This document shows, piece after piece, positions 7,701 to 26,223 of a stretch of DNA of 33,701 nucleotides. A program made the position numbers and the translations under genes. The stretch's first letter is position 1. Each line of letters opens with the position of its first letter. The DNA comes from Alphaproteobacteria bacterium (GTDB lineage: Bacteria; Pseudomonadota; Alphaproteobacteria; TMED109): NCBI GenBank assembly GCA_022819905.1, contig JAJEGJ010000016.1, forward strand, positions 1 through 33,701, written 5' to 3'. The notes under the pieces are model-generated. The model was not told where the DNA came from, ran no database searches, and worked only from the letters and a program-made list of their open reading frames with translations.

Positions 7701-7956
7701 TGACCCGCAGGAGGTCGCGGTGGCGCGTGAACTGGAGAGGCTCCTCGATACCTGGGAGCTCCGTGCTCCGGGAAGTTACTGGACCCGCCAAGCCCGCAGT
7801 TCCCTGCTTCAAGATGCAGAACGAGCAGCAACACTGCGGGCAATGGGCCGAATGCCGGGAGAAGCCTGGCCGACACTGAACAACATGCGCAGCGTCGAGG
7901 CTGGTACGCGATTCCGGCTTGCCGAAAGGCTGCGCGAACCGGACTCGGGAGGTTAG
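4774..7956 (+). CDS. drmA: DISARM helicase DrmA
   Basis: The protein is 1060 residues, within the usual range for DrmA, the SF2 helicase that with DrmB forms the DISARM core on DNA. A long N-terminal region (about 1-400) without clear enzymatic motifs precedes the helicase. Walker A is PTGGGKTEAY (from about residue 437), motif II is the unusual DELH (644-647), motif III is GSTATI, a Cys cluster (CPAC then C..R.C) lies near 560-595, and the C-terminal RecA fold shows SVGVDIPRLGLM (from about 848) and IQATSRVGRG (about 872-881). The DELH form of motif II with PTGGGKTE is characteristic of the DrmA group. The ATG lies 1 nt after the upstream stop and drmB follows 3 nt after the stop, so the genes are co-transcribed. 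It is intact, but its partner is interrupted. Confidence 0.9.
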   Translation: MRELLLDRLEQDLIGPHADAEVLMSRPSDVYLTGMLWPRESRMGAEEDERFGIAGAGQSETDSGGEEEEISLTGLFRPCSAGVSFAARGEAGKRLGITVRFATYEPVRSSEVEGRNRAEAAAIEDGLGGITRTEWRRRAHNIVLENVALEDGSSFVDLEPYGAPPKVRLHVRTAPWTTGLLATVTLLNEAEPDEDAGREGTERLTLFQTRIEIRPGEGTVLVARPSRRAVLDDDDRSAALLYRNAREFANGHTCSAEWESVADSATADMVATAWLPATVVPATRATGHEVFESLRRDGPTSPLSARWLATADPLELAEGLQRLPAVYATWLGERETDAADLPDEFVQQAEKNIAVCLEVYARMADGARRIAGDATMARAFRLANLAIDLQHGWDYEKQMRGPFEWRPFQLGFILLAAASVADRNHPEREIMDLLWFPTGGGKTEAYLALIAFLAFYRRLAAPDGPDAGDGVAAVIRYTLRLLTTQQFTRASAVVLACEAIRRGRIREAEASRKELGDTPFSIGLWVGGEAVPNRVTDAAAALGGAPDQPTPKQLVQCPACRNPLSWEHDEVADAIHTRCESRECVLIHPEAPLPVWTVDEDVYRARPTLIIGTVDKFAQIVRRKEVNGLFGLDNGRPPDLILQDELHLISGPLGTVAGLYEAAIDRLFESGGARPKIIGSTATIRRASEQVASLFDRATRQFPPSCIDSDDSGFAVVDHDAPGRVYAGVTTAGRSAKFTLQAVAASLLQSAFGGTTDDNARDPYWTLVSYFNSLRELGGALVLMQDDVNDSLSLLAERRDETARQPELIEELTSRRTQADVRDMLHRLSIRADGRGALDVVLATNMLSVGVDIPRLGLMLVNGQPKGIAEYIQATSRVGRGNVPGLVVAVLNNAKARDRSHYESFASFHEALYRDVEPTSVTPFASRARDRALHAVLVALIRHLVPGMLDRPELDDDAVDGARRLIADVVRRAKAIDPQEVAVARELERLLDTWELRAPGSYWTRQARSSLLQDAERAATLRAMGRMPGEAWPTLNNMRSVEAGTRFRLAERLREPDSGG

Positions 7957-7959
7957 CGG

Positions 7960-8415
7960 GTGGCGAACAATCGACTTGGTGAATTGCGAAGAAGCGCCGT
8001 CGTGATGACATTTGGACCGGGTTCGGTCGTCGACTTTCGGGCGGACGACGCCCCAGTGTCCGCCGTCGCGGCAGGATTGGAGGAATGGGACAGGTCATTC
8101 CCGCCCGCGGGCCTCGCCAACCCGCAGAGGATCAGTGAACCAAGGTTGCAGAGAAGGCTCTCGGTGGATGGTTTCCGTCTTCCACCAGTTATCGATGAGA
8201 ACTCGCGGGACAGGGACGGTAATCCCGACCGTCGGACGCTCGTCGCCGCACGGTTTCCAGGGTGGCTGCAGTGCCCGCAGTGCGACCGTCTGGCCCGGGC
8301 GGGCCGCTGGTCCCAGGACCCGGGACGGGCGTACCGCTATTGCGCAAGTTGCACACGCCGGGCGCCCGGTGAGCGCAAGGTGTTCGCGGTACCTGTCCGC
8401 TTCGTGATGGCCTGT
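7960..8415 (+). pseudogene. drmB: DrmB (DUF1998), 5' part, cut by IS21-family element
   Basis: This is the first 152 codons of DrmB, from GTG 7960 with GGGAGG upstream. It begins MANNRLGELRRSAVVMTFGP and contains a zinc-binding pair CPQC...CASC near residues 105-130, then ends at RFVMAC. In intact homologues this segment continues into a GH(L/I)DDFPW block, which is found on the far side of the insertion, at 10543. After 8415 the frame enters the IS tip and ends at 8511, giving a 183-residue truncated product with about 31 foreign residues. That peptide lacks the DUF1998 domain and is unlikely to support DrmA. I saw no other lesion in this part. Confidence 0.9.
8411..8415. repeat. Left target-site duplication (CCTGT)
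   Basis: CCTGT at 8411-8415 is repeated at 10532-10536, immediately outside both ends of the IS21-family element. A 5-bp duplication is within the range this family produces. The duplicated bases are part of the drmB codons for Ala-Cys. Confidence 0.85.
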
Positions 8416-8519
8416 TGTCAATGGCAACTTAAAACTGCTCACTTTTGGCAACTTAAAATTGCACACTTTTCCCGGAGGGTCGCCTCGGGTTCCGCAGTGA
8501 CCCTCGCTTGAAGGCTGTT

Positions 8520-8574
8520 CGCGTTGGGGGCCGGACGCAGGGCGCGGAGCGACCGGAGACCGGCCCCCAACGCG
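8520..8574. terminator. Strong 15-bp-stem hairpin after istB
   Basis: CGCGTTGGGGGCCGG (8520-8534) is perfectly complementary to CCGGCCCCCAACGCG (8560-8574), with 25 bases between. It lies 17 bp beyond the istB stop, inside the IS. No T-run follows on either strand, so it is not a classical intrinsic terminator. It may stop transcription in or out of the element or block read-through from drmB. Confidence 0.5.
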
Positions 8575-8591
8575 TCGCGAAGCGGGCCGGA

Positions 8592-9395
8592 TCACTTCGC
8601 CTGCCTCCGGCGGGTGGACTCCTCCGGCCGTTCGGACCGCAGCAGGTCCCGGTGCTCCCGCATCCGGTAGCTGTTGCCGCGGATGTTGACGATGTGGCAG
8701 TGGTGGAGGAGCCGGTCGATCAGCGCCGCCGCCATCACGTCGTCGCCGAGCACGCCGCCCCACTCCTCGAAGCCCTTGTTCGAGGTGAGCACCGTGGAGG
8801 CGCGCTCGTGGCGGGCGTTGATCAGCTGGAAGAACAGGATCGCGCCGTCCTGGGTGACCGGCAGGTAGCCGATCTCGTCGACCACCAGCAGTGCGGGATG
8901 CGTCAGCACCTTGAGGCGGCGCGCCAGGTTGCCCGACGTCTTCGCCTCCATGAGCGACTCGACCAGGTCCGCGAGGGTGCCGTAGTAGACGCGGCGTCCG
9001 GACTCGGCGGCGGCGATCGCCAGGCTGATGGCCAAGTGCGTCTTGCCGACGCCCGGGGGGCCGAGCAGGACCACGTTCTCGGCGCGGTCGACGAAGCCGA
9101 GCTCATGCAGGCTCTCGACCTGCTCGCGCTTGATGCTCGGCTGGAAGGCGAAGTCGAACTCGGCCAGGGTCTTCACCGCCGGCAGCCGCGAGGAGCGCAT
9201 GGCGGAGTCCAGGCGGCGGTTGTTGCGCAGCACGATCTGGGCGTCCAGCAGCCTCTCGACCGCCTCGCTGGCGGTGACGGTCCCGCCGTCGGCCTGCGCC
9301 AGGATGTCGTCCGCCACCTCAAGCGCGCCGGGCATCTTGAGGTCGGCCAGCATCGCCCGCACCCGGTCGCGCCGGTTCCTGGCCGCGGCCTTCAC
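8592..9395 (-). CDS. istB: IS21-family ATP-binding helper protein IstB
   Basis: The 267-residue protein is the AAA+ regulator that helps the IstA transposase select and engage target DNA. It shows Walker A GPPGVGKTHLA near residue 108, Walker B LLVVDEIGYLP near residue 170, a SNKGFEEWG segment near 210, and a C-terminal RLLHHCHIVNIRGNSYR block typical of the family. The GTG start (9395-9393) overlaps the istA stop as GTGA, the usual coupled arrangement. Length is normal for the family. A longer frame continues upstream in the same phase but is only the shadow of istA. Confidence 0.92.
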   Translation of the reverse strand: MKAAARNRRDRVRAMLADLKMPGALEVADDILAQADGGTVTASEAVERLLDAQIVLRNNRRLDSAMRSSRLPAVKTLAEFDFAFQPSIKREQVESLHELGFVDRAENVVLLGPPGVGKTHLAISLAIAAAESGRRVYYGTLADLVESLMEAKTSGNLARRLKVLTHPALLVVDEIGYLPVTQDGAILFFQLINARHERASTVLTSNKGFEEWGGVLGDDVMAAALIDRLLHHCHIVNIRGNSYRMREHRDLLRSERPEESTRRRQAK

Positions 9396-10411
9396 CGCGC
9401 CACCTCCGCGTAGTCGGCCAGCGAGCGCTTCTGCACCGGCACGGCGGGCCGCGCCGGCGCTGCCGGCGCCGCGGACTGCGTGGCGCCGAGGCGTCGGTAG
9501 GGCCGCCCCGCGAGCGGGCCGAGCGCACCCCTCTCGTCGCGTTCGAAGCGGTCCACCGGACGTTCGCCCGTGGTGCCGTGCACGCGCACGTTCGCGGTGC
9601 CGTCCAGCCAACGCGCCGCCTGCCCGTTGAGGTCCTCGTCGCTGGCGAACGTGCGTCCGTAGAAGAAGTTCTCCCGCAGGTAGCGGATCGGCCGCTCCAC
9701 CTTCCCCTTCGTCCGGGCCCGGTACGGCCGGCACGAGCGCGGCATGAACCCCCAGTGCGCCGCGAAGCGCAGGAACTCCGGGTTGAGGATCAGCTCCCCG
9801 CCGCCGGTGCGGTCGTCCGAGAGCACCACCGCGCGCATCTGGTCGAACAGCATCTCCCGGGGCACCCCGCCGAAGCGCGCGAACGCGCCCTCCAGCCCAT
9901 CGAACAGAACGCGCATCGTCTGCCGACGGTAGAACCGCAGCCACAGCAGCCTCGAGTGGCCCAGCACCACCAGCAGCGCGTGCCGCCGGCCCCACGGCAG
10001 CGTGAACGTGCCGAAGTCCACCTGGCCCTGGCGGCCCGGCGGCGTCCCGAAGCGGACGGTCGGCTCGACCGGCGCGCGCGGCCGCACTTGGCCGACGTAG
10101 TCCCTCACGCGGCTGTAGCCCCCCGGGTAGCCCGCCGCGCGCACTTCGTCGAACAGGCGCTGCGCCGAGAGCTGCGGATACTCCTCCAGCCGCGCCTTGA
10201 TGATCCCCTTGTACGGATCCAGCTTCTGCTTCCTGCGTCGCCGTCGCGCCGCGCCCGCCGCGCCCGCAGCAAGGTCGCGGTCCAACTGCCCCGTGGCGAT
10301 CCAGTGGTGGATCGTCCGCCGGCTGATGCCGAAGCGCCTCGACAACTCCGCCTTGCTGATCCCCTGATCGAGATAGTGCTTCAACAACATCCTTGTCTCC
10401 CATCCATGCAT
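9392..10411 (-). CDS. istA: IS21-family transposase IstA
   Basis: The protein has 339 residues from ATG 10411; an in-frame start at 10477 would add 22 residues that do not look like the family. It has an N-terminal helix-turn-helix (GISKAELSRRFGISRRTIHHW, partly shown), a basic linker, and an rve/DDE catalytic core with Asp in GQVDFGTF, Asp in LFDQMRAVV and Glu in TKGKVERPIRY. A C-terminal domain follows. It cuts and joins the IS ends. It is somewhat short for IstA (often 390-510 residues) but the catalytic triad is complete. Confidence 0.9.
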   Translation of the reverse strand: MHGWETRMLLKHYLDQGISKAELSRRFGISRRTIHHWIATGQLDRDLAAGAAGAARRRRRKQKLDPYKGIIKARLEEYPQLSAQRLFDEVRAAGYPGGYSRVRDYVGQVRPRAPVEPTVRFGTPPGRQGQVDFGTFTLPWGRRHALLVVLGHSRLLWLRFYRRQTMRVLFDGLEGAFARFGGVPREMLFDQMRAVVLSDDRTGGGELILNPEFLRFAAHWGFMPRSCRPYRARTKGKVERPIRYLRENFFYGRTFASDEDLNGQAARWLDGTANVRVHGTTGERPVDRFERDERGALGPLAGRPYRRLGATQSAAPAAPARPAVPVQKRSLADYAEVAR

Positions 10412-10531
10412 CCGGCGCCGCCCCTTCCTTGTTGGCAAGGCCAACAGGGTGGACCCGTCCGCAACCGTCGCCAACACGAAGTGCGCAATTCCTCGTTGAC
10501 AGAAATGGGAAATTTAAAGTTGCCGCTAACA

Positions 10532-10536
10532 CCTGT
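10532..10536. repeat. Right target-site duplication (CCTGT)
   Basis: This is the second copy of the CCTGT that flanks the left IS tip at 8411-8415. Confidence 0.85.
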
Positions 10537-11922
10537 TCCCGGGGACATCTGGACGACTTCCCCTGGCACGCCTGGGTCAGACACCGGGACGAGTGCAGGA
10601 AGAAGGAGCGGGCTGACCTATACCTTCGATCGGAGCGGCCTGGACTGGGCGGGTTGATTCTCAGCTGCCCCGAGTGCAAGGCGCGCCGGAGTATGGATGG
10701 GGTGTTCAGCGCGCAGACGTGGAACGGCTTTCGATGTCGCGGCCGTAGGCCCTGGCTTGCCGGGCCGAACGAGGAGTGCGACCGTGAACCGCGGGCGCTA
10801 CAGCGAGGGGCGTCAAACCTGTACTTCCCGGTCGTGGCGTCGGCGCTCAGCATTCCCCCTTGGTCCGATGCACTTCAGGAAGCGCTAGGGGTCTACTGGA
10901 ATTCGATCGTGCGGGTGGAAGCCGCTGATCGAAAAACCTTTGTCCGCGTTCTGGCGAACGGGGATTTGGCGCCAGTCATCAACGCCCTCGGCTTGGATTT
11001 CGAGGAGCTGGTCCGGCAGATCGAGAAGCGGCTGGCACGGTACGATGACGGCGCAGTTTTGGGTATCCGCCAGGAGGAGTACCGTCAGTTCGAGTCGGGA
11101 ATCGATACAGCGGAAAGAGACTCACGAGAGTTCGAGATCCGAAACGTGCGGGTGCCGGACAGTATTCGCCCGTTCTTCGACCACATCGTGCGCGTCGTAC
11201 GGCTGCGGGAGGTGCGAGCACTTATGGGCTTTACCCGGATCAATCCGCCGGGCGATGAAGAGAGTCCAGAGGTCGCGGCGATCGCTGCCGGAAACCCGGG
11301 TTGGCTTCCGGCGGTGGAGGTCCGTGGGGAAGGGGTGTTCCTGGCATTCAACCAGATGGCGCTCGGTGCGTGGGAAGCCAACGACCGGGTGATGGAACGG
11401 GCACGGCGTGTCGACGAGGCATGGCGGATTGAGTGGCGGACGAGGCACGGAGAGCAAGAAATAGCCCGGACAATCACTCCGCGGTATCTACTGGTACATA
11501 CGTTCGCACATGCGTTAATGCGCCAACTCACGCTGGAGTGCGGGTACTCGACGGCAGCCCTTCGCGAACGGCTGTACGTGAGCGAAGGAGACGGCGGGAT
11601 GGCTGGCGTGCTGATCTACACGGCGACGTCCGACTCGGACGGGACGCTTGGTGGTTTGCAACGGCAAGGAGAAGGGTACCGGATCGAGCGGGCCGTCGAG
11701 GCGTCGGTACGGGCCATGGAATGGTGTTCTTCGGATCCCGTGTGCATTCAAGACGCGATCGGGGGCTCGGACGGACTGTCGCTGGCCGCTTGCCATGCCT
11801 GCGTTCTCGCGCCTGAGACCGCCTGTGAGGAATACAACCGGTTCCTCGACAGGGCGATGCTGGCCGGTTTGCCGGAAGCGGTAGAGGTGGGATTCTTTGC
11901 GGGGCTCCTGCGGAAGGCGTGA
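10537..11922 (+). pseudogene. drmB: DrmB (DUF1998), 3' part, downstream of the IS
   Basis: This segment supplies codons 153-613 of DrmB. It resumes with SRGHLDDFPWHAWV, exactly continuing RFVMAC from 8415. It has a CPEC motif near its start and, toward the end, the DUF1998 block YLLVHTFAHALMRQL followed by GVLIYTATSDSDGTLGGL and a Cys cluster (DPVC, ACHAC, ETAC). The frame is open upstream into the IS (a start at 10393 would read through the IS tip), so a low level of a C-terminal fragment is possible. The rest looks undamaged. The stop at 11920-11922 is 1 nt before the next ATG. DrmB normally partners DrmA, so loss of the joined protein should disable the system. Confidence 0.9.
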
Positions 11923-11923
11923 C

Positions 11924-13609
11924 ATGGCTGTAATGTGGCCACGATCGCTTCCGCCCGACGTCACCGCCAACATGCTGCGGGATACGGAGTGCGAGGTGTA
12001 CCGGCGGCTGGAGACAGTGCTGGATGATTCGTTCGTTGTCTTCTACTCGCGTCCCTGGCTTGGACTCACGGAGGATGGGGAGGAGATCGATGGCGAGTGC
12101 GACTTCGTTGTCGCGCATGCGGAATTGGGGCTGTTGACGCTTGAAGTGAAGGGCGGGGCGGTCGCATACGACCCACGTAGTGAGCGCTGGACAAGTCGCG
12201 ATCGTTGGAACGTAACGCACAACATCAAGAATCCGGTTCAACAAGCACGAAGCGCAAAGCACGAGCTCTTAAAGAAGCTCAAAGACTCCTCGCATTGGAG
12301 AGCGCGATGGATCCGAGCCCGGCATGGAGTTGTGCTGCCACATTCCTCCGCACCGCGGGGAGACCTGGGGGCGGACATGCCGCAACGCATATTCTGCTTC
12401 TCGGAGACGTTTGCGCGCGGACTCGGCGACTGGGTTCGGAGTCGATTGGGGCATGGAGGGGCCAATAAGGGAAGAACGCGCGAGCTAGGCCGGGATGGCC
12501 TTCGCGCGCTCGAGAAGGTGCTTGCGAGGCCGTTCCAGCTGCGAGTCTCGCTCGGGGCAACACTTTCGCGGGACGATGCGGAACTGGAATCGGTGACCCA
12601 ACAGCAGTTCCACATTCTGCGAGCGTTGGAGGCGGTACCACGCGCTGCGATTGCCGGCGCGGCTGGTACGGGAAAGACGGTGCTGGCGATGGAAGAAGCC
12701 AGTCGTCTAGCCGAAAAAGGGGTGCGGACGCTGTACGTCTGCTATAACCGGGGCCTTGCATGCGAAGTCCGCAGTCGTATGCGAGATGGTCTGCCTGTCG
12801 CAGTGATGACGTTCCATGAGCTCTGCGCGGAGATGGCTGGCCGAGCTGGACTCTCGCGTCCGGCTGGCGTCAGTGAGAGGCAGCTTTTCGAAGAGGTCTG
12901 GCTCGAACTTCTCATGGACGCATTCGAGCGCTTGCCTGAGGAAGTGTTTGATGCAATCGTTGTCGATGAAGGTCAGGATTTCCTGCCGTTGTGGTGGACC
13001 GCTGTCGAGTCGGGGCTGAGCACGCGCGGACTGCTTCGGATCTTCTACGACAATAACCAGCGGGTGTATGCGAGCGCAGCGAATCTACCTGGGGAGATCA
13101 AGTTGGTCCCGATTCGCCTGACCCTCAATCTGCGGAACACCAAGCGAATACATGAGCTTGTCCGGAAACACTATGAGGGTCACGAGATCGAAGCTGTCGG
13201 CCCCCATGGAGTGGAGGTGCGTTGGGTCAGTGTGGAATCTCCCGGCAAACTGCAGCGTGAGGTGTCCGATTGCGTTGCGCGTCTGCATTCAATCGAGCGC
13301 GTACCAACCGGCGATATCGGGGTGCTCGCGGCAACCGAGGCGATCGTGCAATTGCTCGCGCCGCATGACCGCCTGGGTGAATTCGCAGCGGTGCGATGCG
13401 ACCAGGAGTCAGGCGGGCGGATTGTCGTGGACACGATAAGGCGGTTTAAGGGTCTGGAACGACAGGTCGTGATCGTGGCGGCGACTGGGGAATCCGTCAC
13501 GGACAAGGAACTGCCGTATGTAGCGCTGTCCCGGGCGCGTACGCATCTAGTGGTTGCTGGCGAGCCGAGGGTGTTAGACAGGATGCGGGGTGCCGTGAGG
13601 GTAGGTTGA
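11924..13609 (+). CDS. NERD nuclease-SF1 helicase fusion
   Basis: The protein has 561 residues from ATG 11924, 1 nt after the drmB stop. The N-terminal ~150 residues match a NERD (nuclease-related) domain: Asp in GECDFVV (D60) and the E-x-K pair in LTLEVKGG (E74, K76) fit a PD-(D/E)xK site. An SF1 helicase follows with Walker A GAAGTGKT (245-252), DEGQD (348-352) as motif II, an LTLNLRNTKRIHELV motif IV-like segment, DTIRRFKGLERQVVIV and VALSRARTHLVV (V/VI). It probably cleaves or degrades DNA while translocating. In classic DISARM the last gene is the PLD-family drmC; none is seen here, so this fusion may supply the nuclease function. That substitution is inference. Confidence 0.85.
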   Translation: MAVMWPRSLPPDVTANMLRDTECEVYRRLETVLDDSFVVFYSRPWLGLTEDGEEIDGECDFVVAHAELGLLTLEVKGGAVAYDPRSERWTSRDRWNVTHNIKNPVQQARSAKHELLKKLKDSSHWRARWIRARHGVVLPHSSAPRGDLGADMPQRIFCFSETFARGLGDWVRSRLGHGGANKGRTRELGRDGLRALEKVLARPFQLRVSLGATLSRDDAELESVTQQQFHILRALEAVPRAAIAGAAGTGKTVLAMEEASRLAEKGVRTLYVCYNRGLACEVRSRMRDGLPVAVMTFHELCAEMAGRAGLSRPAGVSERQLFEEVWLELLMDAFERLPEEVFDAIVVDEGQDFLPLWWTAVESGLSTRGLLRIFYDNNQRVYASAANLPGEIKLVPIRLTLNLRNTKRIHELVRKHYEGHEIEAVGPHGVEVRWVSVESPGKLQREVSDCVARLHSIERVPTGDIGVLAATEAIVQLLAPHDRLGEFAAVRCDQESGGRIVVDTIRRFKGLERQVVIVAATGESVTDKELPYVALSRARTHLVVAGEPRVLDRMRGAVRVG

Positions 13610-13721
13610 GTTCAGCGTGCGCGGTCCGCGGGACAGCTCGCGTACGTAAACAACGGTGGCAGGCGGTGGACGAGGTTAGAGCGCGCCGTAACCGTAGCAT
13701 GTCGATTGAACGGAGACAGTT

Positions 13722-14897
13722 GTGGATGTGATGACCATTTCGTTTTCTGACGCCGGTTCAGCCGACCTTAGGGTCGACTCGGTTTATCGGGGAGGGCGGA
13801 TGGGCAACGCGGGAGACGACCCGTTGCCGCACCTCCTGGAGGTGAGTAATGCCGGTGGATTTAGGTATCGAGGCCAGATCGATTCGTTGGAAATGGTTGT
13901 CCTCACGTCGTCAGGAAGCGAGCCGGATTGGCCGGACATGCTCGATAGGGAGACGGGGGTCTATACCTACTTCGGGGACAACAGGCGCCCTGGTCGTGAC
14001 CTTCACGACACGCCCAGGAAGGGTAACGAGCTTCTCAAACGGGTGTTCGAACTGGCGAGTTCCGGGGTCGAGGAACGCCGAAAGGTACCCCCTGTCTTCC
14101 TCTTCGCGAGCACGGGGGAATGGAGGGATGTCGTCTTCCTCGGACTGGCCGTTCCGGGCACCCTTGACGTCCGTGCCTCTGAAGACTTGGTAGCCATCTG
14201 GAGAGTTTCTGGGGGAAGGCGCTTTCAGAACTACCGGGCACGCTTCTCGGTTATCGACGCTCCAGTGGTGCCGAGGGTATGGATTGAGGATGTAGTCGCG
14301 GGCAATCCTCATACCACTAATGCGCCCGAGGCATGGTCAAGCTGGATCAGGACTGGCCAGCGTCGCATGTTGACTTCTACCAGATCGGTGGAGTTTCGAA
14401 AGAGAGAGGAGCAGATTCCCGGCGACTCGGGAGATCAGGCCACGTTGAGAAGAGTGTACGAGTACTTCAAAGAGGATTCCTACGGTTTCGAACGCTGTGC
14501 CGCAGAGCTCGCGAAGTTGCTCCTGCCTGACATTGCGGAACTCGATTTGACTCGGCCTTCGCGCGATGGTGGCCGCGATGCGATTGGGAAGCTGCGGATT
14601 GGGAGCGGGTCATCAGGGATCGTGGTCGACTTCGCGCTGGAGGCAAAGTGTTACGCCACTTCGAAAGGTGTGGGAGTTAGGGACGTGTCTCGGCTGATTT
14701 CCCGATTGCGCCATCGACAATTCGGCATTCTGGTGACAACAAGCTACGTCGGTCTGCAGGCCTACCGGGAGGTCAAAGAGGATCAACATCCAGTAATAGT
14801 CGTTTCAGGTGCGGATGTGGTAGAGCTACTGCGGGCCAACGGCTATTCGAGTGCTGAAGCCGTGCGAATGTGGCTGGAGGAAAAATTCGCGCCGTAA
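13722..14897 (+). CDS. AspBHI/MspJI-like modification-dependent restriction endonuclease
   Basis: The 391-residue protein should cleave DNA containing 5-methylcytosine (type IV/IIM). The N-terminal half has a YRGGRMGNAGDDPLPHLL-like opening, FRYRG, and a DDPLP...TYFGDNRRPGRDLHDTPRKGN region that I recognise from the AspBHI subgroup, where this half forms the modified-cytosine-binding SRA-like domain. The C-terminal half has a PD-(D/E)xK fold: D286 (GGRDA), exactly 20 residues, then E307-A-K309, the DX20EAK spacing reported for this family. An FGILVTTSYVG strand follows. GTG 13722 is preceded by GGAG at a suitable distance. It is separated from the operon by 112 bp, so it may have its own promoter. 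Specificity cannot be read off. Confidence 0.78.
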   Translation: MDVMTISFSDAGSADLRVDSVYRGGRMGNAGDDPLPHLLEVSNAGGFRYRGQIDSLEMVVLTSSGSEPDWPDMLDRETGVYTYFGDNRRPGRDLHDTPRKGNELLKRVFELASSGVEERRKVPPVFLFASTGEWRDVVFLGLAVPGTLDVRASEDLVAIWRVSGGRRFQNYRARFSVIDAPVVPRVWIEDVVAGNPHTTNAPEAWSSWIRTGQRRMLTSTRSVEFRKREEQIPGDSGDQATLRRVYEYFKEDSYGFERCAAELAKLLLPDIAELDLTRPSRDGGRDAIGKLRIGSGSSGIVVDFALEAKCYATSKGVGVRDVSRLISRLRHRQFGILVTTSYVGLQAYREVKEDQHPVIVVSGADVVELLRANGYSSAEAVRMWLEEKFAP

Positions 14898-15220
14898 GGT
14901 GGAAGACCATGGGAGCTGTCTGGAGCGTTCTTGGCGAATGTTGGCCACGGTGAAACCAATTGTGCCGTGGGATGTTGGTCGGTGGCATCCGGTTGGCTTC
15001 ACGAATCCAACAGTCCAACCGGCCCCAAAGGCCTACCAGCCCCCATCGCCACCACTATCCTCCACCTTGAGCAGCATGTCTGCGAACAGGAAAGGCAACG
15101 CTGCCGAGCGTCAGAGTCGATGAGGCACCAAGTTTGATTGCTCTGTCCGTAAGGCGGTTTGCCTAGCCATCCGGCGGTGTGTAGCCTTGCGCGCTTGACC
15201 TGTTAGAGAGCGCTACGCTC
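14898..15220. other. Intergenic region before the SNF2 gene
   Basis: There is no convincing gene in these 323 bp; an overlapping frame at 14851-15123 has no family features. An inverted repeat, CCGGTTGG (14989-14996) and CCAACCGG (15015-15022), could form an 8-bp stem with an 18-nt loop and might attenuate or terminate transcription. The region separates the AspBHI-like gene from the SNF2-Hsp70 pair and presumably holds the latter's promoter, but I could not place convincing -35 and -10 boxes. Confidence 0.4.
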
Positions 15221-18200
15221 ATGGCCTCGCGTTTCAATCCCAATGACCTAGTTCGGCGCAAGTCTCGACCCGACGCTGTCGGGGTGATTCGGGACGCTGG
15301 CTACCTTGAGGAAGCCACTGGCCAATGGATTTACCGTGTCCAGTTCGGCAACGGAGTTAGGGGTATTGCGGAAGAGGAGTTGGAGCGGCTTCCAGAGCAC
15401 ACCGATGCATGGGAGGACATAGCGGACGGAACATTTAGCGGCGCGGATGCATTCCGCACTTTGATGACCTTCGAGAGGCTGCGCCGTCCCCCTTCCCCGA
15501 TCGCTGCTTCATTCGGCTCTGCCAAAGCGGCTTTCTATCCCTTTCAATTCAAGCCACTGCTCAAGTTCCTTGAGAACCCGAGCAAACGGTTGCTGATCGC
15601 TGACGACGTTGGGCTCGGGAAGACCATTGAGGCCGGGTACATCATTCGGGAACTTAAGTCGCGGGTCAGCGTCGAGCGAACTCTACTCGTGGTCCCCTCC
15701 CGGCTCCGAACCAAGTGGCAGGCTGAAATGGACCGCCGCTTCGGAGAGCGCTTCGAGATAGTGACCGGGCGCCGCATAGCCGAGTTGCGCAAAGGTCTTG
15801 AAAGGGGCGGCGACTTGGAACGCTTCTCCTGGATTGTCTCCATCGAGTCCGCCCGTTCTTCCGACGTCGTGGAGTTTCTGGAGAACGTTCAGCCGCCTTT
15901 GGACATTGTCGTTGTCGATGAAGCGCATCGGATGCGCAACCCGGATACGCAGCAGCACCGTCTTGGCCAAGCGCTGTCCCGATGCGCGGAGAACATGATT
16001 TTTCTCACGGCCACGCCGGTTCAGACGGGTCTGGACAACCTCTTTCGGCTTCTGAACATCCTTGACGGATCAGAATTCCAGGACGGCGCCCTGTTCGAAG
16101 AGCAGTGCGCGGCCAACCGCCCAATCATCCGCGCGGCCACCGCGATTCGTTCGAATCCGCCCGCTGTGGACGCAGCCGTCAGCGCCCTGGAGGAGCTGAA
16201 GAAAAGTCCCTACACGCGCCGGTTAACGCAATCCGACTACTTTGCCAGCCTCGTGGAACGGTGTAGACGGGCCGAACCCTTGGACCGCGATGCACTCGTG
16301 GCGCTCCAGAGGGACATCAACGAGCTTTCGCTGACGGGCACCATCGTCAGCCGAACGCGGAAGGTGGAGGTCATTCCCGACAGAACGTTGCGCGCACCCA
16401 ATGTCGTCGCCGTTCGATTCACTGCGACCGAACGCGCCTTCTACGACTCGGTCGCGGAGCTTTGCAGCGTGATTCGTCCTGATCTCTCCGGATGGGGTCG
16501 TGCGCTCGCCGCGCTGCAGGCTTTCCGCGCAACCGCAAGCTGTATACCCGCTGCGGCCAGGGGATTCCGGGACAAGCTTGCCCGCGGCGGCTCCATCGTG
16601 GAGGGGTTGGCTCGAGACTTCGACGATGGCCTATACGACAGGGACGGTGGCGCACTTCCCCACTCAGAGAGCGTTCGCGAGAAACTCGACGAGGTCACGT
16701 CGACCTTGGAGCGACTCACGGAAGAGGACACGAAGTACGAAAGGCTCAAGGACGCCCTGCACGAAATTTGGCGGGAGGACCGCGACGCCGGACGGTCTCC
16801 ACGCAAGGTGGTCCTGTTCGCGTTCTTTAAGCCGACGCTCGCCTACCTCAATAAACGTCTCGGCAACGACCGAATCCAGTCCCGTCTGATCAACGGCGAC
16901 GTGCCGATTCCCCAGCGTGAGGCCCGCATTGACGAATTCGCGAGCGATCCGGACATTCGCCTCCTGCTCTCGTCCGAGGTTGGCAGCGAAGGGCTAGACC
17001 TGCAGTTCGCCTCCGTCGTAGTGAACTACGACCTGCCTTGGAATCCCATGGTGGTGGAGCAGCGCATCGGGCGCATTGACCGTATCGGTCAAGCAACGCC
17101 CAGAATCGTTATCCTGAACCTAGTCGCCTCGGAGACCATAGAGGAGCGCATACTCTATCGGCTCTATGACCGAATCGGCATATTCCGGGAGTCCATCGGC
17201 GAGATCGAGCCAATACTGGGCGAGTCCGTTGAAAAGCTCGCAGCGGACGCCATACGCGGCGGCTTGACCGAAGAGGAACAGCGATCACAGGCAGATGACT
17301 CGGCGGACGCTTGGAGCGACGAACGCCTGAAGGCCGAAGGTCTCGCTAACGAGACCGATAGTCTCATGGCTGCTGACCAATCCTTCCTCGACGAGATCGA
17401 GGGATTGATCGGCCGGCGCAAAGTCCCCTCCAGCGCTGAACTCCACGCCTATGTGGGCGGTTACCTTGCCGCCAACTTCGCTGGCAGCAGATTTCCCCAA
17501 ACGTTGGTCTCGCACGTCGCGGACATCCGGACGCCATCAGATGTCGGTCGGCTCGTCTTGCAGGCGTTCCCCACTGATCGGGAAGCCGGTCGTTTCGGTC
17601 GAATGCTGGAAGCGGGTGCGGTCAGGGCGACCTTCGATCAGGATGCTGCGCTCAAGCATGCCAACGCCGAGCTGATCCACTCCCGCCACCCCTTCGTCCG
17701 GATGGTCATGACGGAAGGAGACCGCGACCGAAGCACAATGCCGCGTTCGTTTGCTCTCGCCGTGAAGGCCGCTGATCTTCCCGACTCAGCCAAAGTGCGG
17801 TCTGGTGATCTCATGTTCGAGATACATCTTTTCGATACCGGCGGCATAAGACCCCGCATCAGTCTCGTCCCGCTGTTTCTCAGCGAGCAAGAGAGTTTTC
17901 TGCCCGACGCTGAATCCGAGGACTTGCTGCTGTCCATGCTCGACCATTCGTCGTCCTTGGACCCCGCCCCCCACCTCGATTCACAGTCGGTGAGCCGAGT
18001 GTCGCAGCGCCTTCGTGATCAACTAGGTTCGCGCCGGTCGACAGTCGTTTTGACGGAACGCGAGTTGAACGCCGTGCGTACCAGCCGACTGAAGACCACC
18101 CTTGCGGTGGCTTTGGACCACCGTGTCAGCGAGGCCGAGACGCGCCTCGGCTCACTTCAAGACAAAGGGGCCGCACCATTCGCCATCAAGATGGCTCGGG

Positions 18201-18322
18201 CCAAACTGGACCGTGCTAATCGGGAAAGAACGTCACGGTTGGATAGCTTGGACGAATCGTCTGATCCCGAAGTAGAGACAGAATTGGTCGCTGCGGGTGT
18301 CCTGCGCATCTTGGCGTCCTAA
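15221..18322 (+). CDS. SNF2-family helicase/translocase, DrmD- or RapA-like
   Basis: The protein is 1033 residues. Residues about 1-60 (NPNDLVRRKSRPDAVGVI, then YRVQFGNG) look like a small SH3/Tudor-like beta domain as in RapA-type proteins. The SNF2 motor follows: DDVGLGKTIEAGYI (about 127-140), DEAHRM (about 233-238), FLTATPVQTGLDNLF (about 260), VVLFAFFKPTLAYLN (about 529) and SSEVGSEGLDLQFASVV then QRIGRIDRIGQ (about 583-623). About 400 residues C-terminal to the motor match nothing I recognise and are partly coiled-coil. It should translocate on double-stranded DNA and remodel bound protein. Class 1 DISARM carries a SNF2 helicase (DrmD) of similar size. Here its immediate partner is the Hsp70-like gene 24 nt downstream. 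Confidence 0.85.
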   Translation: MASRFNPNDLVRRKSRPDAVGVIRDAGYLEEATGQWIYRVQFGNGVRGIAEEELERLPEHTDAWEDIADGTFSGADAFRTLMTFERLRRPPSPIAASFGSAKAAFYPFQFKPLLKFLENPSKRLLIADDVGLGKTIEAGYIIRELKSRVSVERTLLVVPSRLRTKWQAEMDRRFGERFEIVTGRRIAELRKGLERGGDLERFSWIVSIESARSSDVVEFLENVQPPLDIVVVDEAHRMRNPDTQQHRLGQALSRCAENMIFLTATPVQTGLDNLFRLLNILDGSEFQDGALFEEQCAANRPIIRAATAIRSNPPAVDAAVSALEELKKSPYTRRLTQSDYFASLVERCRRAEPLDRDALVALQRDINELSLTGTIVSRTRKVEVIPDRTLRAPNVVAVRFTATERAFYDSVAELCSVIRPDLSGWGRALAALQAFRATASCIPAAARGFRDKLARGGSIVEGLARDFDDGLYDRDGGALPHSESVREKLDEVTSTLERLTEEDTKYERLKDALHEIWREDRDAGRSPRKVVLFAFFKPTLAYLNKRLGNDRIQSRLINGDVPIPQREARIDEFASDPDIRLLLSSEVGSEGLDLQFASVVVNYDLPWNPMVVEQRIGRIDRIGQATPRIVILNLVASETIEERILYRLYDRIGIFRESIGEIEPILGESVEKLAADAIRGGLTEEEQRSQADDSADAWSDERLKAEGLANETDSLMAADQSFLDEIEGLIGRRKVPSSAELHAYVGGYLAANFAGSRFPQTLVSHVADIRTPSDVGRLVLQAFPTDREAGRFGRMLEAGAVRATFDQDAALKHANAELIHSRHPFVRMVMTEGDRDRSTMPRSFALAVKAADLPDSAKVRSGDLMFEIHLFDTGGIRPRISLVPLFLSEQESFLPDAESEDLLLSMLDHSSSLDPAPHLDSQSVSRVSQRLRDQLGSRRSTVVLTERELNAVRTSRLKTTLAVALDHRVSEAETRLGSLQDKGAAPFAIKMARAKLDRANRERTSRLDSLDESSDPEVETELVAAGVLRILAS

Positions 18323-18346
18323 TCCATCACCTCACAGGAGACGCTT

Positions 18347-19738
18347 GTGGCTCACCAACCCACCAATCGGCATCAGCGGCCAGCACCGGGTCGCTCAATT
18401 CCTCAGTCGGAAGAACGGTCGCGCCAACCCGACGCCTCGCGGTCGCTCAGGCTGGGCGTTGACTACGGCACTAGCAGATCAAAACTTGTGATCACCGACT
18501 ATGATGCCGTCGACGGCGACCGCAGCTTCCTTGTGCGGCCCGCATCCTCCACCGACAGCGATGACTACCTGATCCCGTCCACGGTCTGTGCCACCGAGGG
18601 CTCGCTTCGCTTTGGGTTCTCGGCCGAAGCTCGGGCGGACGAAGGCACTCCCTATCGTTCCCTCAAGATGCTCTGCGCGTATCCCGACAGATTCTATGGC
18701 GACCGTGCGCCCCTGCCGACCGGCATGAACGCCCGTGACTTGGCGACTTTGTATGTTGGGCATTTGATCACCCTTGGCCGTCAAGCTGCGAAACAGTATG
18801 CGGCGCAGCGGGACTCAACCGCTTTGTTGAGCATCACGCTGGGCGCCCCGATGGCGCAACTGGACGACGAGAAGCTGCACACCATGTTTGTCGGCATTGC
18901 CAGAGAGGCCTTTGCGCTTGCTGGCCAGCTCGATCTCCAGGACACCGTATCCATCGCCGACGCACGGGGTGCACTCAAGTCCGTCCGCGCTAAGGTCGGC
19001 CAGGAGCCTCCTCCAAGCCCGCGCGATTGGGTGCGTTCGGAGGCTGAGGCGGCGCTTTTCTGGGCACACCGATCTCCCGACATAGCAGGTGGGCGCTACG
19101 CATGCATTGACGTCGGAGCCGGAACCACGAGCGCCTCATGGTTCCACATTAGCGCGGTGAAATCCGGCGAGGTCTTGGTGAACGAGCGGCTCAGCTTCTA
19201 TAGTGCAGCGTGCGCTCCCCCAGCATGCGATGCCGTGGACCGCGTGCTCGCCACACATGTGCAGGATGTCGATACGTTGGCCGGCATCAGGGGGCGCGAA
19301 AACGAGTTACTTCAGAGCTTTCCCGATCAAGGCCGTGCGGAACTGGATAAAGTTCTTGCGGAGATCGCCAAGGTGTTTGGCGAAGCTTCTGGCAAGGCGT
19401 TCCCTAAGGACAAGAGCATCCTCAGGTGGCGTGGAATCGGTCGAGTCTTCTTTCTCGGCGGCGGCACGAAGTTGGACGTCGTTCAGCACAGACTATTGCA
19501 GGAGAAGGCGGACTGGCTCAAGAGCGAGTCGGTCGCGAATCCCGGGCTCCCTTCTGACCTTTTTGAACAAGATGGCAGCGACCTACGTGCTGACCCGGCC
19601 TTTCTGCTTGTTGCCTATGGACTGGCACGTCGCCTCGGCGACGTTCCGGACGTGTTCGCGCCCGGGCAGATAGATCCCTATACGCCGAAGTACCGTGTCC
19701 GGGATCGGGTTTCGTCCGACGACCTGTATAGCGACTGA
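18347..19738 (+). CDS. Hsp70/actin-fold ATPase paired with the SNF2 helicase
   Basis: The 463-residue protein has the nucleotide-binding signatures of the Hsp70/actin/sugar-kinase fold: phosphate-1 LGVDYGTSRSKLVI (about 36-49), phosphate-2 CIDVGAGTTSASW (about 253-265) and the adenosine motif FFLGGGTKLD (about 368-377). It is much shorter than DnaK (about 640) and has no clear substrate-binding domain, so it is an Hsp70-like ATPase rather than a housekeeping chaperone. About 33 hydrophilic residues precede the fold. GTG 18347 has a good CAGGAGA upstream. It lies 24 nt after the SNF2 gene, so they are one transcript. A role such as ATP-dependent control of the helicase is possible but is only inference. 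Confidence 0.8.
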   Translation: MAHQPTNRHQRPAPGRSIPQSEERSRQPDASRSLRLGVDYGTSRSKLVITDYDAVDGDRSFLVRPASSTDSDDYLIPSTVCATEGSLRFGFSAEARADEGTPYRSLKMLCAYPDRFYGDRAPLPTGMNARDLATLYVGHLITLGRQAAKQYAAQRDSTALLSITLGAPMAQLDDEKLHTMFVGIAREAFALAGQLDLQDTVSIADARGALKSVRAKVGQEPPPSPRDWVRSEAEAALFWAHRSPDIAGGRYACIDVGAGTTSASWFHISAVKSGEVLVNERLSFYSAACAPPACDAVDRVLATHVQDVDTLAGIRGRENELLQSFPDQGRAELDKVLAEIAKVFGEASGKAFPKDKSILRWRGIGRVFFLGGGTKLDVVQHRLLQEKADWLKSESVANPGLPSDLFEQDGSDLRADPAFLLVAYGLARRLGDVPDVFAPGQIDPYTPKYRVRDRVSSDDLYSD

Positions 19739-23335: not shown

Positions 23336-25138
23336 ATGTCGTCCCTATTCATGGTTGAAGCAGACCAAGGCGCGTTGATCGATTCAGCGCGCTTTACGGT
23401 TGACGATGGCCTGTCGGCGGCACGGGCACTGGCGTCGTCAGTCGATGCGGGGGAGCGGTTCGAATTCGCGCGGGCGGTGGTGCATAGCTGCATTCGCGCC
23501 TACTGGAGCGAAGTGGGGTCAACGCCTCACTGCAGTTGGCCTCTGCGCGTGCTGCCGGACGGCGTTGGGATCGCTCCGATCCCAGAGCAGGCTGAGACGC
23601 TTGCCCAGTGCATCGGCGCAGCAGCGGCGCACTTGGATCCCTTGGAGGCTGGCTATCTGGTCGGCGTGCTCTACACCACCATGATGCCCCGCGCGGCCCG
23701 GGCGAAGCTTGGCGCGTACTACACGCCCCCGGCGCTATGCGAACGGCTGCTGGACATGGCGACGGACGCGGGCGTGGATTGGGCCTCGGCGCGGGTGCTC
23801 GATCCAGCTTGTGGCGGCGGCGCATTCCTCGCGCCGGTTGCGCGGCGGATGGTGGCGGGTCGCAAAGGGCAGGATGCTCGTGTCGTACTGAAGGACATTG
23901 AGCGTCGGCTGGTCGGTTTCGAGGTGGACCCCTTCGCGGCTTGGATGTCCCAAGTGGTCTTGGACGTGGCGTTGAACGATCTGTGCCGGGAAGCGGGAGC
24001 GCAGCTTGGGTCCGTCGTGCGCGTGTGCGACAGTCTTGAGCAGGCGCCAGCGGGGGAGGGGTTCGATCTGGTGGTCGGCAACCCGCCCTACGGGCGCGTC
24101 ACGCTGTCGCCGCCGATGCGCCGGAAGTTCAGGCGCAGCCTGTTCGGCCACGCCAACCTCTACGGCCTGTTCACCGATTTGGCTCTGCGCTTCACCCGGC
24201 CGGGCGGCATCATCGCCTATGTGACGCCGACCAGCTTCCTGGCCGGCGAGTACTTCAAGGCGTTGCGCGGCTTGCTCGGCCGCGAAGCCCCGCCCGCCAG
24301 CATCGGCTTCGTTGGCAAACGCAAGGGGGTCTTCGCCGACGTGCTGCAGGAAACCCTGTTGGCCACCTATCGGCGCGGTGGCGACCCCGGCTCCGGCACC
24401 GTGCACTTCATATCGTCGGGAGAGAATGGATCGATTGAGGTAGGGGCGGCAGGCTCGTTCAGTCTGCCCGAATCCTCGGACCAACCTTGGTTGATGCCGC
24501 GCACCGAGGCACAGGGCGCCCTGCTGAGCCGCGTCGGCGCATCGCCCTGTCGCTTGGCCGACTACGGCTACAAGGTGAGTACCGGTCCCTTGGTGTGGAA
24601 CCGGCACAAGACGAGTTTGCAGGAAGGGCCGGGCGAGGGGCGCTATCCGCTGGTCTGGGCGGAGTCAGTCCGCTCCGATGGCCAGTTCGAGTTTCGCGCC
24701 GCGAAGCGAAACCACAAGCCCTATTTCCAGCCAGAGCCCGACGAACGTTGGGTGGTCACGGACTTCCCTTGCGTTCTGCTGCAAAGGACGACAGCCAGGG
24801 AGCAATGCAGGCGCCTGATCGCGGCGGAACTCCCGTCGTCCTTCCTCAAGGAGCATGGCGCGGTTGTCGTCGAGAACCACCTGAACATGGTCAAGCCTAT
24901 CAACGGCGAACCGAAGGTGTCGGCCGCCGCCCTCGCCGCATTGCTGAACAGCGAGGTGGCGGACCAGATCTTCCGCTGCATCAACGGCAGCGTCGCGGTG
25001 TCCGCCTATGAGTTGCAAGCGTTGCCACTACCACCGCTGGAGGCCATGAAGGAGATCGAACCACTCGTGCAGCGTGGAGCGGGGCGGGAGGCACTGGAAC
25101 AGGCGCTGTGCCAGGCATACGGATGTGAGAAGGGATGA
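23336..25138 (+). CDS. Type II N6-adenine DNA methyltransferase
   Basis: The 600-residue protein is a gamma-type N6-adenine methylase that protects the host from the endonuclease encoded next. It shows motif X LGAYYTPPALCERLLDMA, motif I DPACGGGAFL (near residue 157) and the catalytic NPPYG (near residue 249), followed by a long C-terminal target-recognition region including an NHKPYFQPE segment. It overlaps the endonuclease gene as ATGA, so they are translated together. By the identity of the downstream partner, the BsuBI/PstI family, its target is probably a palindrome like CTGCAG, but that is not demonstrated. The start ATG 23336 follows the promoter at 23282. Confidence 0.88.
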   Translation: MSSLFMVEADQGALIDSARFTVDDGLSAARALASSVDAGERFEFARAVVHSCIRAYWSEVGSTPHCSWPLRVLPDGVGIAPIPEQAETLAQCIGAAAAHLDPLEAGYLVGVLYTTMMPRAARAKLGAYYTPPALCERLLDMATDAGVDWASARVLDPACGGGAFLAPVARRMVAGRKGQDARVVLKDIERRLVGFEVDPFAAWMSQVVLDVALNDLCREAGAQLGSVVRVCDSLEQAPAGEGFDLVVGNPPYGRVTLSPPMRRKFRRSLFGHANLYGLFTDLALRFTRPGGIIAYVTPTSFLAGEYFKALRGLLGREAPPASIGFVGKRKGVFADVLQETLLATYRRGGDPGSGTVHFISSGENGSIEVGAAGSFSLPESSDQPWLMPRTEAQGALLSRVGASPCRLADYGYKVSTGPLVWNRHKTSLQEGPGEGRYPLVWAESVRSDGQFEFRAAKRNHKPYFQPEPDERWVVTDFPCVLLQRTTAREQCRRLIAAELPSSFLKEHGAVVVENHLNMVKPINGEPKVSAAALAALLNSEVADQIFRCINGSVAVSAYELQALPLPPLEAMKEIEPLVQRGAGREALEQALCQAYGCEKG

Positions 25139-26223
25139 TGGCGCTGCCCCCGCTTTTGGCGGTTCCCGATGTTCGCGAGAGGCTCGGCGCGATCTTCCCT
25201 GAAGGAACTCCTAACCGAAACTACGTTACCCGTGAAATCGCCGCCAAGACGGTTTTCGTGATGCTGTACATCGGTGCCGTGGAGGGCGAAGACCGATGGT
25301 TGCGGCCCGATCAGGTCACCCGCATGACGGATGCGCAGGCAGATTTGGCGGACGCTGAAGCCCGCGAACTTTGGCTGTCGGCCTCCATGCGCTTGGCCGG
25401 GGGCGACATCGCGGGACGATGGTATGCCGCCAACACCCGCGAGCCCATCAGGGACGAGACGTTACGGGAAGGATTGGTGCGCCTAGGCGCGGTGAAGGAG
25501 CGGGAGGGGCTGGCCACGACTTCGCCGCTTCCCCGCTACGCATTAGCCACGGAATTTGCAGGGTTGTTCGATCCGGGCTTGAAGGGAGAGGCCCTTTTGG
25601 AGGCGATTGAGCAATGGCGGACGGCGAATCTGTCGAGCGGCGCCTTGGCCCGGGTGGCCATCATGCGCCGTGGCGCCGCTGCTCAAGGCGAGAAGGTCCT
25701 GGTGACTTTTCCCGGTGGGGAGGCCCGCCACATGGAGCCGGGGCCGAGTTCGGTGATTTCAAAGTCCGTGGTGGAGGAGTTTGCGCCGCGCTTTTTGGAA
25801 GAGCCTGCAGTGATCTGGTTGAGCGAGAGCCGTAATCAGGTCGTGGCCCGCGATGACGATCTCGCCAAGGCAATCGGCCTGACCATCGAACCGGACCGAA
25901 ACTTGCCAGACCTGATACTGGCCGATCTCGGCCCGGCTGATCCTCTGCTGGTCTTCGTGGAGGTGGTCGCCAGTGCCGGGCCAGTAAGCGAATCGCGGCA
26001 AGCGGCGTTGATGACGGTCGCGACGGAGGCTGGGTTCGACGAAGCGCAGGTAGCATTCGTCACCGCCTATGCAGACCGCGATGACGCCGCATTCAAGGGT
26101 TCGGTAAGCGAATTGGCTTGGCGCTCATTCGCTTGGTTCATGTCGGAACCGGACCACATCGTCGTGCTGCATCAAGGCGGGGCCGCCGGGCAGATGCGGC
26201 TGTGGAACTTGATGCGCTTCTGA
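25135..26223 (+). CDS. Type II restriction endonuclease, BsuBI/PstI family
   Basis: The 362-residue protein overlaps the methylase stop (ATGA) and has the BsuBI/PstI C-terminal domain: AVIWLSESRNQVVARDD, then LPDLILADLG (from about residue 257) and LVFVEVVASAGPVSESRQAAL (about 272-290), the Asp and Glu in PD...EVV forming the presumed metal-binding site. The N-terminal ~200 residues (ATKTVF-like HTH-ish region and EREGLATTSPLPRYAL) match the accessory part of the family. Length is similar to relatives (about 310-360). It is probably specific for a CTGCAG-like site and lethal without the upstream methylase. It looks intact. Confidence 0.83.
   Translation: MMALPPLLAVPDVRERLGAIFPEGTPNRNYVTREIAAKTVFVMLYIGAVEGEDRWLRPDQVTRMTDAQADLADAEARELWLSASMRLAGGDIAGRWYAANTREPIRDETLREGLVRLGAVKEREGLATTSPLPRYALATEFAGLFDPGLKGEALLEAIEQWRTANLSSGALARVAIMRRGAAAQGEKVLVTFPGGEARHMEPGPSSVISKSVVEEFAPRFLEEPAVIWLSESRNQVVARDDDLAKAIGLTIEPDRNLPDLILADLGPADPLLVFVEVVASAGPVSESRQAALMTVATEAGFDEAQVAFVTAYADRDDAAFKGSVSELAWRSFAWFMSEPDHIVVLHQGGAAGQMRLWNLMRF

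Follow-up and report, generated by a model that had tools for sequence, protein, structure and literature searches.

RapA-like SNF2 motors are reported for BREX-, DISARM- and ARMADA-type systems, and the portions of PMC12839542 that deal with BrxHII and RapA give both the domain order Tudor, SNF2, inactive restriction endonuclease (REase), alpha+beta. Hsp70-like domains are also on record: sections of PMC11090510 place them in a predicted defence system, in CnuD/CnuCD of CoCoNuTs and in McrB–Hsp70 fusions, while the account of GAP1-N2 conflict systems in PMC7159879 has an HSP70 without a peptide-binding domain as second gene. Here, we examine a 33,701-nt stretch of DNA from an alphaproteobacterium of the TMED109 lineage (contig JAJEGJ010000016.1, positions 1 to 33,701; hereafter the window), in which genes of these two kinds stand side by side. 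A gene for a SNF2-family motor is followed, 24 nt downstream and also on the + strand, by one for an Hsp70-type nucleotide-binding domain (NBD), both open reading frames (ORFs) lying where an earlier reading of the sequence (the original prediction) had placed them. That reading knew of no established two-gene defence system of this type, and we likewise found no SNF2–Hsp70 pair described in the open-licence literature, which besides the papers just cited included PMC12458937, PMC9142583 and PMC3710099. We propose that the pair is a candidate defence module of two genes, so far uncharacterised.

The survey of neighbourhoods that had been proposed for the pair recovered both genes, adjacent and co-oriented, at 28 distinct loci on chromosomes of at least six phyla, on plasmids and on one viral contig, which rules out a chance pair of neighbours. 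These are the window, L002-L006, L010-L017, L019-L021, L025, L027, L031, L032, L038, L090, L123, L125, L126, L127 and L135, with duplicates (L001, L124, L132, L134, L137) set aside; among the 28, the Hsp70-like gene is broken in L017 and L019, the motor is split into two ORFs in L027 and L031 begins inside the motor. In a tree of 66 motors, the 27 partnered motors together with L018 form one clade (Shimodaira–Hasegawa approximate likelihood ratio test support 95; a quick method with no bootstrap and some long branches, L027 and motors below 250 bits being left out). The origins of the tree motors include Candidatus Binatota, Pseudomonadota, Myxococcota, Thermodesulfobacteriota, Planctomycetota and Cyanobacteriota. 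Occurrence is very patchy and, when the centre genomes are counted, amounts to 2 of 384, 8 of 292, 3 of 274, 2 of 198 and 1 of 200 of the genomes sampled.

The association was approached from both genes. A genome scan by motor alignment kept 80 loci, 17 of them in the pair clade (L027 by score alone), and 16 of these 17 had an adjacent Hsp70-like ORF, L018 being cut by the end of its contig. Among the eight plasmid records examined, from 544 with a SNF2 match, all five clade loci had the partner, downstream of the motor in plasmids of Shinella, Cyanobacterium HL-69, Sphingobium and Aminobacter and upstream of it in Leptolyngbya. Overall, the partner was present in 21 of 22 clade loci and the remaining one ends at a contig edge. 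From the other side, profile searches of the same five genome sets for the Hsp70-like protein yielded 10 new matches at E ≤ 1e-8, besides the centre genomes and the known G405. Six adjoin an intact SNF2 gene (G501, G827, G856, G916, G985 and G1276), although G856 is probably the already known L004 plasmid and hence not independent; two adjoin a motor-less relative, one (G943) is a C-terminal fragment of the Hsp70-like gene and one (G1313) is DnaK itself, apart in score at 36 bits. We considered whether the Hsp70-like gene might be a paralogue of DnaK and rejected this, G1313 being the single DnaK-like match over the threshold and lying apart from the rest. The two approaches agree: the pair recurs in many genomes and the partner was not found with unrelated neighbours. 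We conclude that the two genes are very probably obligate partners.

Searches with single proteins recovered less. The window's Hsp70-like protein retrieved the window alone among 398 genomes of its phylum because the family is too divergent, and the family was therefore reached through the motor. The same protein gave no tblastn match among plasmids, and the L090 partner gave none among phages. Of 71 stretches of the viral collection that matched a pattern, one, L090, was confirmed, also as a pair; it lies at 4933-9326 of a contig that may be phage or host island.

The two genes are on the same strand at all 28 loci, the SNF2 gene leading at 25 and the Hsp70-like gene at three (L003, L027 and L125), all three of which carry an N-terminal extension that puts 192-428 residues ahead of the DxGT motif. 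Adjacency therefore outlasts a change of gene order. At the 27 loci where spacing can be measured, the genes overlap by up to 29 nt or are separated by up to 98 nt. Pairwise distances of the two proteins are correlated (r 0.92 over 24 pairs, L017, L019, L027 and L031 being left out; 0.91 without L010 and L011), and none of 10,000 permutations reached this value (maximum 0.36). The correlation is one of co-inheritance and does not in itself imply contact. No recurrent third component emerged when neighbouring ORFs of at least 150 amino acids (aa) were clustered at E 1e-6, no family being present in more than three of 23 loci.

Outside the clade, neighbouring lineages provide genuine exceptions. 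For related motors in L007 (10843-13968), L008 (11045-14386) and L009 (10785-13889), the place of the partner is taken by a SACS/HSP90-type ATPase (PADLOC TmtA), and L022 and L052 have UvrD-type helicase partners. In L029 (3756-8512), a distant SNF2 gene, also outside the clade, overlaps by 4 nt a downstream gene for a 441-aa Pfam HSP70 protein that lacks a substrate domain; the same combination may have arisen here independently.

The window motor matches Pfam SNF2-rel_dom (1.9e-21) and Helicase_C (7e-20), and its top PADLOC match, in a scan made without a cut-off, is PDLC02623 'DrmD', nearly full length (E 3.2e-161). The DrmD/RapA-like character that had been proposed for it is borne out by these matches and by structure, yet the curated models stay below their cut-offs: 347 bits against 610 for the DrmD equivalog NF038317 and 196 against 576 for RapA (PRK04914). 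Judged by sequence, the motor is related to DrmD and RapA and is neither one by NCBI curated cut-offs. Its predicted structure (predicted local distance difference test (pLDDT) 79, predicted template-modelling score (pTM) 0.68) begins with a barrel at the N terminus, followed by the SNF2 core, an alpha+beta region and, at the C-terminal end, a long helical hairpin; the modelled barrel is probably Tudor-like. E. coli RapA (8spg), also the best PDB sequence match, is the sole near end-to-end structural match among the PDB matches listed (residues 62-1033, 771 aligned, Z 21.7), and this alignment gives the window motor the full-length RapA architecture. We attribute the root-mean-square deviation (rmsd) of 10.1 to domain movement or model error and rely on domain order alone. 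The predicted barrel, SNF2 core and C-terminal alpha+beta region are shared with RapA and BrxHII as the relevant parts of PMC12839542 describe them, whereas the dedicated Hsp70-type partner and the NCBIfam score set the pair motor apart. Twelve motor columns are invariant in 17 aligned sequences (K134 T135 D233 E234 A235 H236 Q614 R615 G617 R618 R621 Q624). The C-terminal alpha+beta region, part of which is what the motor-less relatives retain, is a candidate docking surface for the partner.

The partner had no match in Pfam or NCBIfam, and its only PADLOC match is a weak one to PDC-M61B (7e-6). Its AlphaFold2 model (pLDDT 79, pTM 0.81, from a 16-sequence alignment) resembles DnaK (Foldseek E 1e-12; Z 28.3, rmsd 3.9 Å over 332 residues at 14% identity), and the family profile reaches Hsp70s by sequence too (mortalin, E 2.8e-7). 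Of 19 conserved positions inspected against the genomic DnaK of G1313, 15 are identical, including D39, K107, E232, D255 and T260, which we take to be E. coli DnaK D8, K70, E171, D194 and T199. These five are among the residues invariant in the family (G37 D39 G41 T42 K46 K107 P168 E232 D255 G257 T260 G371-373 A423 G425 L426). By alignment and model, the partner is thus an Hsp70 NBD with the full catalytic residue set and a predicted ATPase activity, as its assignment to the Hsp70/actin fold from ATP-binding signatures had anticipated; the invariant lysine corresponds to the Hsp70 catalytic lysine and therefore favours 'Hsp70' over 'actin'. The substrate-binding domain is missing, again in line with the original prediction: the NBD ends at about residue 442 and the window chain about 20 residues on, at 463, and all 21 aligned family members terminate shortly past the NBD. 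Some have long N-terminal extensions, of up to 428 residues. The last eight residues carry the motif [STDG][KR][DE] in 14 of 26 members (shuffled sequences: mean 1.1, maximum 6), and a looser form, [FYVLI]x(1-3)[KRSH][DE], occurs in 18 of 26 including the window (mean 3.8, maximum 10).

Fold and catalytic residues are therefore those of the Hsp70/DnaK NBD, whereas the absent substrate domain, the low identity, the extra invariant K46 and the GGG motif are not. Among the neighbours of the pair, which were annotated in part, none was recognised as a gene for GrpE or a J-domain protein. The Cnu proteins of CoCoNuTs, as far as the sections of PMC11090510 on them go, differ in having a substrate domain, HEAT-like repeats, McrB-like GTPases and a degenerate Walker A-like motif; the pair has an NBD only, with intact residues and a SNF2 partner. 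GAP1-N2 systems are predicted conflict systems that also include an NBD-only Hsp70, but they are GTPase-centred, with full HSP70 and GrpE, and the passages of PMC7159879 on them note no SNF2 pair. PDC-M61, a PADLOC candidate system, also has an Hsp70-like second component (its B subunit), which the window partner matches only weakly; PDC-M61A had no match in the window's genome, but a positive control was equally silent. We considered and rejected a CoCoNuT identity for the pair, and regard one with PDC-M61 as unlikely. In L016, from a Ramlibacter metagenome-assembled genome (MAG), a second, different Hsp70-like gene of PDC-M61B type (349-1680; 1.8e-29) immediately precedes the pair.

Near-obligate co-localisation, co-inheritance, catalytic residues kept in both proteins, the lack of a substrate domain and the lack of a recurrent third gene lead us to read the SNF2 and Hsp70-like proteins as subunits of one machine, in which the NBD would be a dedicated regulatory ATPase and not a chaperone, a reading on which we are evenly divided. 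In such a machine, the motor would be a RapA/BrxHII-type SNF2 double-stranded-DNA translocase to which the NBD binds; with the two chains modelled singly, the NBD C-terminal tail and the motor terminal domains are candidate contacts. An ATP/ADP cycle would open and close the NBD like Hsp70 or actin, so that the motor would be held inactive on self DNA but released or coupled on invading DNA. The motor would then translocate and, on its way, strip or block the complexes that transcribe and replicate the phage. A nuclease domain is recognisable in neither protein, and DNA loss would therefore need host nucleases. An ATP-dependent switch on a DNA translocase, the hypothesis first attached to this locus, fits the complete catalytic residues, the missing substrate domain and the co-inheritance, and we give a role of the NBD as motor switch slightly less than an even chance.

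In eukaryotic chromatin remodellers, actin and actin-related proteins (Arp) are associated with SNF2 motors. By analogy, the pair could be a prokaryotic counterpart of the actin/Arp–SNF2 remodellers, with a chaperone-less actin/Hsp70-fold ATPase as obligate SNF2 regulator in a nuclease-free two-gene immunity, although we regard this parallel as unlikely. On the same view, the HSP90/sacsin-type ATPase found at the same place in the neighbouring motor lineages L007-L009 would make the coupling of DNA motors to chaperone-fold ATPases a general principle.

A role in defence against mobile genetic elements is likely, given that the pair is carried on plasmids and has neighbours of restriction, BREX, Hma and DISARM type. 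PADLOC and Pfam scans covered 111 of 143 listed neighbour ORFs, among which Type I restriction–modification (RM), Type IIG, PglX, DrmD/DrmA, Hma, Mko and TmtA were matched by a few members each, alongside Pfam ResIII, PLD, HsdR, integrase, resolvase and terminase domains. L020, for instance, has a Type I restriction enzyme as its neighbour, L015 has PglX and L025 has PDC-S68, and an annotated Hachiman HamA is close to L006.

Several observations tell against a defence machine in which the NBD simply switches the motor. The tally of defence neighbours is descriptive; the distance correlation reflects shared descent too, as linkage alone would give; and the window partner's own tail lacks the strict [STDG][KR][DE] motif. 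In two cyanobacterial loci, moreover, the partner persists next to a SNF2 relative that lacks the motor, a situation for which a pure motor switch does not account. In L128 (G909, 6499-8004), an open ORF of 501 aa corresponds to motor aa 1-91 and 743-936 (here and below in the numbering of the query motors), has no recognisable motor and lies beside an intact Hsp70-like ORF. In L129 (G987, 6133-7776), the neighbour ORF matches the motor at about aa 794-947 only and the Hsp70-like gene is frameshifted. The chief finding against a simple switch is L128, and both loci suggest that the partner can be kept without the motor.

The same locus, with L129 following the trend, would suit a different division of labour, in which the Hsp70-like protein is itself the sensor or effector and acts by recognition or remodelling of a phage protein or nucleoprotein. 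The SNF2 protein would then be a scaffold on the DNA, its motor secondary, and translocation would not be gated. The long N-terminal extensions of several family members and the conserved tails of many would also be at home there. However, the motor motifs are invariant across the 17 aligned sequences, the Hsp70-like protein has no substrate-binding domain, and motor-less neighbours make up just two of the nine non-DnaK matches on the Hsp70 side, one of them decaying. We consider this alternative unlikely, and continue to favour subunits of one machine.

The relationship with DISARM raises a further alternative. The pair was originally described as separate from the DISARM-like operon, which holds in the window but not in the cyanobacterium G827, where the order on one strand is drmD, SNF2, Hsp70-like, drmMI, drmA, drmB, drmC. 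The complete DISARM operon around the pair, with its canonical DrmD, has the coordinates L126 1717-17228 and L146 9680-12417. The pair might thus be an accessory to larger defence operons, those of DISARM and the like, to which it would add a further motor of DrmD type with its regulator instead of acting alone, and the DISARM-like operon upstream of the pair in the window and the 1632 bits of PDLC02623 on the G827 copy could be taken the same way. Yet DrmA homologues occur at only two of the 28 paired loci (the window and L126) within the available flanks, which are short at some loci. The tree sets the pair motors apart from the DISARM-associated SNF2 of L085, a near-identical block in L011 (below) carries the pair without DISARM, and the window drmB is broken by an IS21-type element. 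We judge an accessory role to be quite improbable.

The PADLOC profile bears on this relationship. PDLC02623 gives 479-1632 bits on paired motors of the searched genomes (479 and 489 being the halves of one split motor) and at most 477 elsewhere, the latter in the genome of the UvrD-partnered L052. Given these scores and the separate canonical DrmD in G827, the profile appears, by sequence score, to describe the motor family of the pair and not DrmD proper. The pair motor is like DrmD in being a RapA-type SNF2 motor, in its full-length PDLC02623 match and in its place within the G827 operon; it differs in falling below the NF038317 cut-off, in having an Hsp70-like partner and in the lack of DrmA at 26 of 28 loci. 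Under the DrmD label of PDLC02623, such motors may get reported as DISARM remnants.

A role outside defence, in which the motor and its regulatory ATPase would serve housekeeping or plasmid maintenance in the manner of RapA (RNA polymerase recycling, repair), could draw on RapA as the only full-length structure match among those listed and the best PDB sequence match, but the very patchy occurrence, plasmid carriage, defence-gene neighbours and a score below the RapA cut-off make it highly improbable.

In the window, the pair begins about 320 nt past a methyl-directed restriction gene, itself downstream of the DISARM-like operon (table 1). The drmB gene of that operon is in two pieces, N-terminal (7960-8511) and C-terminal (10393-11922), and the DISARM-like system is probably inactive, being split by the IS21-type element between them. 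A methyltransferase and a BsuBI/PstI-type restriction endonuclease (23336-26223) adjoin McrBC, and the island therefore holds at least four defence modules. The 8.3-kb block shared with L011 corresponds there to 6738-15028, in a distant genome labelled Candidatus Binatia, and comes without the DISARM-like operon and without the PstI-like RM system. One 12-kb stretch of the L011 genome compared with the window's genome gave four matching pieces only, each of at most 630 bases and 67-70% identity. This sequence comparison suggests a recent joint transfer of pair and McrBC, or else a mis-binned MAG contig. An Rfam scan of the window gave no match, and a promoter and terminator scan gave nothing above chance level.

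Table 1. Coordinates of the pair, its domains and neighbouring features in the window.
Feature	Position (nt)	Strand	Remarks
SNF2-family motor gene	15221..18322	+	1033 aa; RapA/BrxHII/DrmD-like architecture
Small N-terminal beta-barrel of the motor, probably Tudor-like	15248..15388	+	aa 10-56; strands E10-13 to E54-56 in model
SNF2 motor core	15533..17170	+	aa 105-650; GLGKT, DEAH, TATP and QRIGRIDRIGQ all intact
C-terminal alpha+beta region of the motor	17423..18313	+	aa 735-1031; helical hairpin aa 921-1012; from model secondary structure
Hsp70-type NBD gene	18347..19738	+	463 aa; no substrate-binding domain
Hsp70-like NBD proper	18440..19672	+	aa 32-442; range aligned to DnaK/BiP
C-terminal tail of the partner	19709..19735	+	aa 455-463; follows low-confidence linker; akin to family tail motif
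IS21-type element inside drmB	within 8511-10400		rve transposase 9392-10477 (-); IstB domain in ORF 8592-10853 (-)
Block common to window and L011	14964..23253	.	pair and convergent McrBC; blastn, 92.4% DNA identity

If our reading is correct, bacteria would control a DNA motor by an Hsp70 ATPase clock, a form of control so far tied to eukaryotic actin-related proteins. The pair offers a minimal two-protein system for asking how a nuclease-free helicase could stop phages.

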